From the NCBI GenBank assembly GCA_022819585.1, contig JAJEGY010000009.1, positions 1-64,000 on the forward strand: a stretch of DNA of 64,000 bases, given 5' to 3'. Below the pieces are notes generated by a model that worked only from the letters and a program-made list of their open reading frames with translations, made no database searches and had not been told where the DNA came from. Positions 51,627 to 55,858 of the stretch are shown here, one piece after another (position 1 is the first letter of the stretch; each line of letters opens with the position of its first letter). The position numbers were made by a program, and so were the translations under genes. The DNA is from Dehalococcoidia bacterium (GTDB taxonomy: Bacteria > Chloroflexota > Dehalococcoidia > Lucifugimonadales > Lucifugimonadaceae).

Positions 51627-52391
51627 TTAGATGTAGTCAAGCATTCCGAGGGTAGCGCGGGTTTGATCGGGGTTGGATCGTTGTTTTTCGCGGATTTTCT
51701 CGATTAAGGCGAGTTCGTCAGGAGTCAGTTGCTCAAGTTGCTCAGGGTTAGTGCCTCGTTGCTTTGAGTTGCGGATGAGGTTCAGCCAGTCGTTGCCTAC
51801 CTCGGTGAGGGCTTCTGTATCGATGCCCTCTTCTCTTGCTCTGTTGACGAAGTTGATTTCGTCTCTGGTGAGAGATGCTATGTCGTCAGTGGTGATGCCC
51901 GCGGTGTTTAGTTTGGCGATGGTTTCCAATGTTCCGGCGTCGATGAGGTCGATTTGCTCGTCGGAGAGGCCCATGCGGGATAGGCGTCGGAGAGCGACGA
52001 TCTGAGTGGCGTTCATCGAAGCGAGTTCTTCGACGGGGATGCCGAGTTCTTGGAGGCGTTGGAGCGATTTCGCTGCTTCGGGGTCGGTTTCGGCGAGGTC
52101 TTCGGGAGTCAGGCCTTTTTCGAGAACGAGGTCTAGGAGTTCGGCTTCTTCTTGGGAAAGGATGCGGACGACTTCATCGAAGTAGTGTGCGACGCGTCCG
52201 TAGTTAATGCCGAGTCTTGCCATCCAGTAGTTGATGGTTGCCTTTTGGACATTGACTTCTTTGGCGATGCTGCTGACGTTTACGCCAGGTTCGTTGAGTT
52301 TGTATCGAAGAACCTCACGAAGCGGTCCACCAAGGGTTTCTTCGGCCTCGGTGACGGCTTTTGTTGCTCGGAGGTAGTTGTAGGTGGTCAT
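51627..52391 (-). CDS. Unrecognised HTH protein with six 24-residue tandem repeats
   Basis: 254 residues, no family I can name. Residues about 20-62 contain a helix-turn-helix (VSSIAKEVNVQKATINYWMARLGI). From residue 93 to 236 there are six units of exactly 24 residues, each starting with Gly at 93, 117, 141, 165, 189 and 213. Consensus per unit: G-[IL]-[TS]-x-E-x-[LI]-x-x-[LIM], then [DE] at 13-14, [LI] at 15 and 18, [RK] at 20. A weaker unit may precede at 69-92. Each unit would form two short helices, giving a solenoid. The long AT-rich upstream region with palindromes suggests self-regulation. Confidence 0.8.
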   Translation of the reverse strand: MTTYNYLRATKAVTEAEETLGGPLREVLRYKLNEPGVNVSSIAKEVNVQKATINYWMARLGINYGRVAHYFDEVVRILSQEEAELLDLVLEKGLTPEDLAETDPEAAKSLQRLQELGIPVEELASMNATQIVALRRLSRMGLSDEQIDLIDAGTLETIAKLNTAGITTDDIASLTRDEINFVNRAREEGIDTEALTEVGNDWLNLIRNSKQRGTNPEQLEQLTPDELALIEKIREKQRSNPDQTRATLGMLDYI

Positions 52392-52525
52392 GTCGTGAGC
52401 CCTCGTGGGCTTGATGCGTTGGTCCGATTTCGGTTTGGATCAGCTTGGTTCTGCAACTGTATTTGAACTAGTTTAGAGCAAGTTTTGAGTGCGTTTCAAC
52501 GATTTTTGGGACAATTTCGAGCGTA

Positions 52526-52544
52526 GTTCAGATTTCGATTGAAC
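52526..52544. promoter_or_regulatory. Operator-like palindrome 1
   Basis: GTTCAGATTTCGATTGAAC: half-sites GTTCA and TGAAC separated by 9 nt. Lies downstream of the putative minus-strand -10 box. Confidence 0.45.
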
Positions 52545-52646
52545 TTGATCGATACGGACTTATCATTTTATCGCGATAGTTTTGACGAAGTATTATATTA
52601 CGTCGTATTTTGCTTTGAAGAGTGGTCGATTCGGGTTCGGATTTGT

Positions 52647-52664
52647 GTTCAACTTTGTTTGAAC
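52647..52664. promoter_or_regulatory. Operator-like palindrome 2
   Basis: GTTCAACTTTGTTTGAAC: half-sites GTTCA and TGAAC separated by 8 nt. It directly precedes a plus-strand TAGAAT box (52671-52676) and lies just upstream of the putative minus-strand -35. Confidence 0.5.
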
Positions 52665-52996: not shown

Positions 52997-55858
52997 ATGA
53001 CTACTGTTTCGGTCAACGGCAGAGCGCAGGGCACTACTAAGTGGTTGGACCTGTATGTGAATAGTGTGGCGGTAAGGTGTGAGGAGGGATCGCGGGTGTT
53101 GGATGCGATGGACGAAGCTGGCTTCGAGGTACCGACACTTTGCTATGACGAGCGCGTAGGGGCTCAAGGTACGTGTCGGATGTGTCTGGTCGAGGTGGAG
53201 GTGAATGGTCGTACGGAGCAGGTGGCGTCTTGCACTGCGTTTGCGGAAGAAGGGATGTCGGTGGCGACGCATACAGAAGAGATCAAGGACTATCGGAAGA
53301 CGTTGTTGGAGATGCTGCTGTCGGAGATGTCGTCGCCGAATGCGAATCCATACTCGAACAAGGTTGGGCCGACGGAGTTTGATCGTGCGGTGGAGGAGTA
53401 TGAGGCGAGATGGGATGCTTTTCCGAGGTTGCGAGTCCGGGATAAGGCGGTGCATGATGAGAATCCGTTTATCCAGCGGGACTACGACTATTGCATCGCG
53501 TGCTATCGGTGCACGAATATCTGCAACGAGTGGGAGCAGGCGGCGGCGATCACGGTAGATGGGCGAGGGCAGGAATCGAGCATCTTCACGTTTTTCGGGA
53601 ATGAGTTGATGGATTCGCCTTGCACTTTCTGCGGTCAGTGCATCAACACCTGCCCTACCGGGGCATTGACGGATCGGAAGGTTGTTAGTCAGGAGATATC
53701 TGCGGAGGAGGTTGATCGGACGCAGACGATTTGTCCGTATTGCGGTGTTGGATGTGGGATCGAGTTGCTGACGCATGAAGATGAGATCATTGGTGCGGAG
53801 CCAGATTTCACCGCGCCGAGTCGTGGTTCGCTGTGCGTGAAGGGTCAATTCGCGTCTTGGGAGTTTGTGCGGAGCGAGGATAGGTTGCGGCATCCGTTGG
53901 TTAAGCAGGCGGATGGGACGTTCCGAAAGGTTACGTGGGATGAGGCGTTGGATCTGGTGTCGAGCAAGTTCAAGGATGCGATTGCGACTGAGGGGCCGGA
54001 CTCGATTGTTTGCTGGGCGTCGGCTCGGGTAGTGACTGAGGCGAACTATCTGATGCAGAAGTTCGCCCGGGTGGCGATTGGGACGAACAACATCGACAAC
54101 TGTTCCCGTACTTGACACGCTCCATCGGTCGCCGGTCTGGCGGTCATGGTAGGAAGAGGAGCGATGTCGAACTCGATCGAGGAGTTGGCAGGGACCGACT
54201 TTTTGTTGGTTGCGGGATCGAATACGACTGAGGCGCATCCGGTTATTTCGTTGCGTATGAAGCGTGCGGTTAAGAATGGTGCGAAGCTGGTGGTGGTGGA
54301 TCCTCGGAAGATCGAGTTGACGAAGTGGGCGACGCGGCATGTTCAGATCAAGGTCGGGACGGATATCCCCTTCTTCAACGCGGTTGCGAATGTGATCCTC
54401 AATGAGGAGTTGCAGGATTCCAGGTTCATCCGGGATCGGACGGAAGGGTTTGAGGCGTTTGCGCGGCATGTTCAGATGTACACGCCGGAGTATTCGGCTG
54501 AAATCTGTGGAATAACACCTGAGGAAATTATTGAGACGGCTCGTGAGTTTGCGGCGGCGGCACCGAAGGCCGCGATCTGCTACACGCTGGGGATCACTGA
54601 GCACAGTTGCGGGTCTCACAATGTGCAATCGCTGGGGAACTTGGGGTTGTTGTGCGGGACGTTGGGAGTGCCGAATGGTGGTGTGAATCCGTTGCGTGGA
54701 CAGAACAATGTTCAGGGTGCGGGTGATGCCGGTTGCATCCCTACCGATTTGCCGGGGTATCAGAAGGTCGAGCGTCCGGGGATACGCGCAATGTTTGAGA
54801 AGGCTTGGGATGCACCGCTGCCCAAGCGTCGTGGGATCACGAAGATCACTGCAATGGAGCAGATGATCAAGGGTCGGGTGAAAGCGGTTTATGTAATGGG
54901 TGAGAACACCGTTGTTTCGGACCCTCACGCGAATCATGCTGAACATGCTCTGCGATCGGTAGATTTCCTAGTTGTTCAGGACATTTTTCTGACCGAGACG
55001 GCGCAGCTGGCCGATGTTGTGTTGCCGGCGGCATCTTTCGCCGAATCGGACGGGACTTTTGGCAATAGCGAGCGTCGGATACAAAGGGTACGCCCTGCTG
55101 TTTCGCCTCCTGGCGAGGCTAGGTCTGATGTGGATATCTTGCTCGAGATGTTTGCGCGGATGGGCAAGCCGCAGAAGTTGAAGACGTCTAAGGACGTGTT
55201 TACTGAGATGGCGAGCGTCTCCCCGATCTACGGCGGGTTATCGCATGAGCGACTCGACAGGGAAGGCGGGATTCAGTGGCCTTGCGGTGATGAGGATGAT
55301 CCAGGGACTGAGTATTTGCATGGGGATGAGTTTGAGTCGGGCTTCCCGGGATTCTTTGCGCCGGTCGATCATATTCCACCTGCAGAAGAGCCGGATGACG
55401 AGTATCCGTGGTTGTTGACGACGGGTCGACGCAGGTCGACGTATCACACTGGTACGCAGACGGGTCAGGCATCTGGCTTCCAACTGTTAGTGCCGCATGA
55501 GATGTTGGAGATCAATCCGTTGGATGCGGCGGATATGGGTCTTATGGATGGAGATTTGTTGGATGTGTCATCGCGTCGGGGAAAGGTCACGGTTTCGGCA
55601 CGGGTGACTGAGCGGTCGCCGCGGGGTTTGGTGTTCATGTCGTTCGCGTTTCCTGAGATAACGCGGACGAATGATGTGACTTCAGATGCTTACGACTTCA
55701 TCACGGAGACGCCGGAGTTCAAGGCCTGCGCAGTGAAGATTTCGAAGTCGGAGTATCAGGACGAGGATGTGCGGGTTGCACAACGTCGGATACGACTGGC
55801 TGGGGAGGTTAAGCAGCCTACGGAGTTGATGCCGGCTGATGGGCGTGGGGATAAGTAG
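52997..55858 (+). CDS. fdhA: Selenocysteine-containing formate dehydrogenase alpha subunit (TGA at 54113-54115 read as Sec)
   Basis: One reading frame of 953 residues if TGA 54113-54115 is decoded as Sec373. Order: 2Fe-2S domain (Cys49, 60, 63, 79); two 4Fe-4S clusters (Cys166/169/172/176 and 209/212/215/219); the Mo/W-site 4Fe-4S motif (CPYCGVGCG, Cys246/249/253 and Cys280); the molybdopterin domain; and the C-terminal dinucleotide-binding domain. Around the TGA the sequence reads NNIDNCSRT-Sec-HAPSVAGLAV, exactly where formate dehydrogenases have Sec or Cys followed by His. A SECIS-like hairpin follows. The N-terminal Fe-S set is that of soluble or NAD-linked enzymes. No beta or gamma subunit gene is adjacent. 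Confidence 0.92.
54116..54149 (+). promoter_or_regulatory. Bacterial SECIS hairpin
   Basis: Stem 54122-54133 with 54139-54149: CCAT/ATGG, a bulged C at 126, then GGTCGCC/GGCGGTC including two G-T pairs. The apical loop is GGTCT (54134-54138). The loop and its 18-nt distance from the TGA match the E. coli fdhF SECIS as I recall it. Confidence 0.85.

Follow-up and report, generated by a model that had tools for sequence, protein, structure and literature searches.

Background

SARPs such as the large SARP AfsR occupy direct repeats that are spaced at 11 bp and overlap the -35 box, with one protomer per repeat, and the large members of the group have a domain of helical repeats (TPR) at the C-terminus (PMC10936776). 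BldC, a very small HTH protein resembling MerR, oligomerises head to tail on direct repeats, whose number can vary (PMC5859096). SinR joins an HTH to a tetramerising two-helix hook, and its operator is an inverted repeat (PMC3163267).

A gene within the Dehalococcoidia stretch analyzed here (64,000 nt, hereafter the window) shares features with each of these systems. Its promoter contains direct repeats at 11-bp spacing that overlap a -35-like box, and its product is predicted to end in helical repeats, as in the SARPs; the latter differ in having an OmpR-type winged HTH with a BTA domain, an NTPase domain, and two repeats rather than long arrays. No Pfam match to the OmpR-type DNA-binding domain or to the BTA domain was obtained in the window protein or its orthologues, and no sequence relation to SARPs was found. 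An association with direct-repeat arrays at promoters is likewise a feature of BldC, but the BldC repeats are 9 bp long (AATTNNNNC) rather than 11 bp, and its wing is followed by helix alpha-3, while the model of the window protein has extra N-terminal helices and the members of its genus add a repeat tail. A profile of 13 HTH sequences, searched up to E 10, retrieved no BldC chain. The SARPs and BldC would be analogues in mode, not relatives in sequence. SinR/SinI are similar in combining an HTH with a two-helix hook that resembles one of the 24-residue units described below, with weak profile matches, but possess one hook where the present proteins have seven or eight units.

Organization of the locus

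The open reading frame at 51627-52391 on the minus strand starts with ATG, translates into 254 residues and is single-copy. Its parts and the sites upstream of it are as follows.

51627..52391 (-): whole gene, 254 aa; HTH, then seven 24-aa units and a 10-aa tail with a conserved LGM motif
52158..52391 (-): residues 1-78, forming the N-terminal HTH domain; its orthologue in the rest of the order is a free-standing protein of 75-85 aa
52092..52163 (-): 24-aa unit 1, residues 77-100, Gly93
52020..52091 (-): 24-aa unit 2, residues 101-124, Gly117
51948..52019 (-): 24-aa unit 3, residues 125-148, Gly141; ALRRLSR.GL.DEQID invariant
51876..51947 (-): 24-aa unit 4, residues 149-172, Gly165
51804..51875 (-): 24-aa unit 5, residues 173-196, Gly189
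51732..51803 (-): 24-aa unit 6, residues 197-220, Gly213; the extra unit of three orthologues (L032-L034) lies at its end
51660..51731 (-): last 24-aa unit, residues 221-244, without the glycine; corresponds to unit 8 in the longer orthologues
52456..52543 (-): upstream array of eight 11-bp sites, the last 64 bp before the ATG
52470..52499 (-): promoter-like TTGAAA-18-TAAACT within the array; five promoter-like sites in the region versus 0.5 expected
52643..52664 (-): a further pair of 11-bp sites forming a second cluster, GTTCAAACAAA GTTGAACACAA

Periodicity and divergence of the repeat units

Residues 77-244 form seven consecutive 24-residue units that follow the HTH with zero indels. The first-pass annotation had described six exact 24-residue repeats marked by glycines at 93, 117, 141, 165, 189 and 213. 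The spacing of these glycines, which occupy position 17 in six units, is indeed exact and the fixed unit length stands. The count has to be raised to seven, because residues 221-244 fit the same frame although the glycine is missing, and the units are not exact in sequence: pairs of them share only 1-8 of 24 residues, a strong divergence. Each of the five orthologues nevertheless has its two highest values at lags 24 (z 7.3-9.3) and 48 (z 7.1-8.3), a level reached in none of 2000 shuffles. Under a model trained on the remaining unit positions, units 1-5 and the last unit of the window protein gave 8.7-22.5 bits, whereas shuffles averaged about -13; in one orthologue the last unit scored weakly. 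A weak 8-residue sub-period is also present in the window protein.

Column counts give a unit consensus of approximately xL(S/T)xEELxLIRRLRExGI(T/S)xEDLA. An S/T/D..E capping box opens each of the two predicted helices (positions 3/6 and 19/22), and the glycine ends the long helix. Between orthologues unit 3 is the most conserved; together with unit 1 it holds most of the conservation, which does not fall at matching positions of every unit. Judged by dN/dS, the coding frame is under purifying selection: the values are about 0.06 for the HTH and about 0.10 for the repeats between the window gene and L031, and 0.02 and 0.16, respectively, between L032 and L033.

Occurrence in related genomes

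Each of the five near-complete genus genomes has a full-length orthologue, and the two genus genomes without a match are fragmented assemblies. The only gap in the alignment of the five orthologues is 24 columns wide, the window protein and L031 having seven units and L032-L034 eight. The number of units thus varies at a fixed length of 24 residues, and one whole unit is the sole indel (n=5), which supports the earlier proposal that the unit length of a helical repeat is under selection here. Elsewhere the repeat tail is absent, both from the other 245 genomes of the order (250 searched) and from a phylum sample of 400 genomes, in which it was detected only in the window and as one doubtful 59-residue match (E 1.2e-4). 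No second repeat-tail gene is present in the complete relative G005, and no relatives occur among the viral contigs or phages searched. Strongly diverged as the units are, the tail is confined to one genus, and it would have been added, or retained, only there. The window belongs to a SAR202-type member of the Dehalococcoidia (Chloroflexota); the named relatives of the gene come from metagenome assemblies labeled 'Dehalococcoidia bacterium', 'SAR202 cluster bacterium' or 'Chloroflexi bacterium'.

Residues 45-145 of the window protein are also matched, at 25% identity and E of about 4e-6 to 1e-5, by open frames of about 730-810 aa (G021:C2:210460-210762, G030:C20:86864-87166 and G011:C14:50020-50322).

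The HTH domain and its tail-less orthologues

The Pfam model MerR_1 (PF13411) matches L031 with 25.2 bits, above the curated cut-off of 21.6, and falls just below that cut-off in the window protein (20.4 bits), L032 and L034. The MerR C-terminal coiled-coil dimerisation/effector domain is absent; in the window protein the 24-residue repeats stand in the place where it would be. In most genomes of the order, residues 7-77 have matches among small open reading frames, which encode standalone HTH proteins of about 75-85 aa that stop after the HTH and a short tail. Because the genes for cytochrome c, an AIRC-domain (larB-like) protein and dnaN are common neighbours of both the window gene and the standalone genes, the standalone proteins are taken as its orthologues. 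At other standalone loci the neighbours encode a VTT-domain protein, or SmpB and an S41 peptidase. The HTH family extends to other orders of the class. Literature searches found no SAR202 regulator of this kind, and the very small HTH regulators of SAR202-type Dehalococcoidia apparently represent an undescribed family. L185 (G487:C654), in a distant relative of the phylum, is a 323-aa open frame with an HTH related to the family (E 6.9e-7).

The 11-bp promoter array

Each site of the array consists of GTTYNRAAC plus 2 bp and is nearly its own reverse complement. From 52543 down to 52456 the window array reads TTCAATCGAAA TCTGAACTACG CTCGAAATTGT CCCAAAAATCG TTGAAACGCAC TCAAAACTTGC TCTAAACTAGT TCAAATACAGT, and GTTCAA clusters similar to the second site cluster of the window lie upstream of the orthologues. 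An unsupervised model of exact period, run from random starts on 29 upstream regions, gained 286-304 units of log-likelihood at period 11, compared with 57-115 at periods 9, 10, 12 and 13 and -11 to +15 in shuffles. For random upstream sets of G005 the gain at period 11 was 21-44, and codon periodicity accounts for the high value that they show at period 12. Motifs trained separately on the standalone loci (GTTCTAAACAA) and on the genus (GTTCAAAACTA) correlate with r 0.75; of column shuffles, 0.06% do as well. At 18 of 24 standalone loci the array contains a TTGAC -35-like box, while it is weak or missing at standalone loci L007, L010, L013, L016, L022, L023 and L028.

The array at the HTH promoter is the best of the whole locus in 25/28 cases; this figure is in part circular, since these regions also served to train the motif. 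The fair tests are the held-out scan of the genus and the loci outside training. With the standalone-trained motif, the best match lay before the HTH gene in all five genus loci, and in a scan of the 64-kb window the array scored 17.1 against 11.9 elsewhere. Among loci outside training, the HTH promoter held the best array in all three that come from other orders within the class and in one of three from the same order, where L175 and L179 do not favour it. In G005, an independent motif scored the gene's own array at 14.8 with a control maximum of 16.9, placing it within the genome-wide background. Since the genomes are unevenly related, locus counts should not be read as independent events.

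Three further roles were considered and set aside. Few arrays stand above background genome-wide, which speaks against a global regulator, and an array before the Y-family polymerase (IMS) gene is not conserved within the genus. A replication origin was suggested by iterated sites with dnaN nearby, but in G005 the cumulative GC skew has its minimum at 1.68 Mb and its maximum at 0.37 Mb, with the gene at 0.47 Mb; nor was DnaA found by motif search.

Structure prediction and searches for related repeats

Models of the full protein (five sequences) and of a four-unit block (register-shifted rows) reached pLDDT 54 and 64. Both low-confidence models are all-helical and place a helix of about 12 residues and one of about 5 residues in nearly every unit, so that a two-helix alpha-solenoid is the likely fold on these predictions. 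Fold searches with the models gave no match with E <0.7 and none with Z >4; the weak matches to LuxR-type HTH folds are confined to roughly the first 57 residues of the model with four units.

The leucine-rich variant (LRV) repeat has 24 residues and two helices, and so has a unit length in common with the window repeat; the TPR unit has 34 residues. In the first-pass annotation the repeat had been assigned to no known family, with the remark that the LRV consensus differs, and we agree with both statements. Profile and fold searches returned no convincing known repeat family. The window repeat has its glycine at position 17 and capping boxes at 3/6 and 19/22, and Pfam gives no LRV (PF01816) match up to E 1 in the window protein or up to 0.1 in the orthologues. 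Of the alternating alpha/3-10 helices of LRV, the models (pLDDT 54 and 64) give a helix-helix pattern only.

The aroma-sacti cluster domain NF045560 matches residues 186-236 with 32.4 bits (cut-off 30) and is found in four of five orthologues at E up to 0.01. A peptide-natural-product gene cluster was not seen among the neighbours examined (formate dehydrogenase, cytochrome c, AIRC-domain protein and dnaN), and we read the match as similarity at motif level. Derivation of the unit from the MerR alpha3-alpha4 element was rejected, the ZntR match (E 0.25) being at chance level. The giant ALTTAQ-repeat proteins (PF20080) of Rhizobiaceae plasmids (L197-L199) cross-match the 24-residue repeat in tblastn at 24-30% identity and have the 8-residue sub-period in common with it. 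However, these rhizobial proteins have an 8-residue period, low complexity and no HTH, and PF20080 matches the window protein at E 0.57; the relationship was judged to be a low-complexity cross-match.

Candidate mode of action and alternatives

We consider it reasonably probable that the gene encodes a direct-repeat-array autoregulator with a genus-specific acidic alpha-solenoid that binds protein or oligomerises. The HTH protein would bind the array in its own promoter cooperatively and regulate itself, with one protomer per 11-bp site, or about one helical turn, such that the protomers would line up along one face of a phased array reaching the -35 box. The acidic solenoid of 7-8 units would then most likely bind a partner protein or neighbouring protomers and so tune assembly or promoter output. 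The tail is probably a protein-binding or self-assembly rod; we prefer this to DNA reading because the tail is acidic, its third unit is the most conserved, and it is weakly SinI-hook-like. A more specific version, which we regard as rather improbable, treats the unit number as setting the length of an adjustable rod on each DNA-bound protomer, with the acidic solenoids of a new repeat family aligned on one DNA face. If it were true, adding or losing a single unit would change how far the rod extends towards a partner, for instance RNA polymerase or a neighbouring protomer.

The earlier suggestion that the repeats read DNA modularly is not supported. A TALE- or mTERF-like reading of nucleic acid would fit the fixed unit length, the single unit gained or lost between species, and the placement of the repeats after an HTH. 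The net charge of the tail (-13 to -20) argues against it, as do the tail-less HTH orthologues at the same kind of 11-bp array and the conservation in units 1 and 3 in place of matching positions in all units; we hold it to be very unlikely. DNA specificity appears better explained by the HTH than by the repeats. It is doubtful, if somewhat less so, that the units act as SinR/SinI-like hooks which lock HTH protomers along the array, or which are undone by a partner. The NCBIfam SinI model matches four of five orthologues (best E 2.9e-5) and Pfam SinI matches L031 and L032 (E 0.004-0.007), in keeping with the HTH-plus-hook architecture of SinR, but the SinI matches lie under curated cut-offs (PF08671, 17.2 bits vs 31.4), single units give no SinI match, and PDB sequence searches return no SinR/SinI chain.

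That the repeats are a leucine-rich-repeat or other beta-containing solenoid we judge to be extremely improbable. Many 24-residue LRR proteins appear among the PDB sequence matches, as can happen because the period is shared, but the LxxLxLxxN core is missing, both low-confidence models are all-helical, and a capping box stands at the start of each predicted helix. The array itself raises another alternative, namely that a different regulator binds it, or that it acts as a curved promoter element rich in A+T, with the HTH protein being only a neighbour. The motif is A+T-rich and holds only about 5 bits per unit. Yet it includes G and C positions, the array stays with the HTH gene while the gene neighbours change, across differing neighbourhoods and orders, and it is the best of its locus in most cases by the motif trained on those regions; we think this alternative unlikely. 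Under the autoregulator reading, the HTH family has a predicted target in its own promoter array of 11-bp sites, and the contribution of the tail to array binding would be measurable because the regulator occurs both in a tailed form, which has seven or eight units, and in a tail-less one. A conserved array would also help to assign regulators in this lineage, of which few members have been cultured.

Neighbouring genes and a second A+T-rich element

An A+T-rich element, AATTTTGAATTAGTT (G005:C1:35978-36049), is conserved in six genus genomes (L191-L196) about 110-240 bp upstream of an M17 aminopeptidase gene and scores high with the array model in all six. It adjoins a divergent TTGAC..TAAACT promoter-like site, has no Rfam or tRNA match, and is possibly a second target or an unrecognised transcript. 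The M17 aminopeptidase orthologue L192 (G004:C12:24570-26168) contains one in-frame TGA, with none in its relatives, and is either a pseudogene or the product of an assembly error.

At the genus loci the array lies between the HTH gene and a divergent formate dehydrogenase gene. Control of the latter by the HTH protein is a conjecture, because this adjacency is seen only in the genus. In the window the gene (52997-55858, plus strand) encodes a formate dehydrogenase-type molybdopterin oxidoreductase with an in-frame TGA in the context NCSRT-TGA-HAPS. Both halves of the TGA-split gene are conserved in four genus genomes, and the in-frame TGA is a probable selenocysteine codon.
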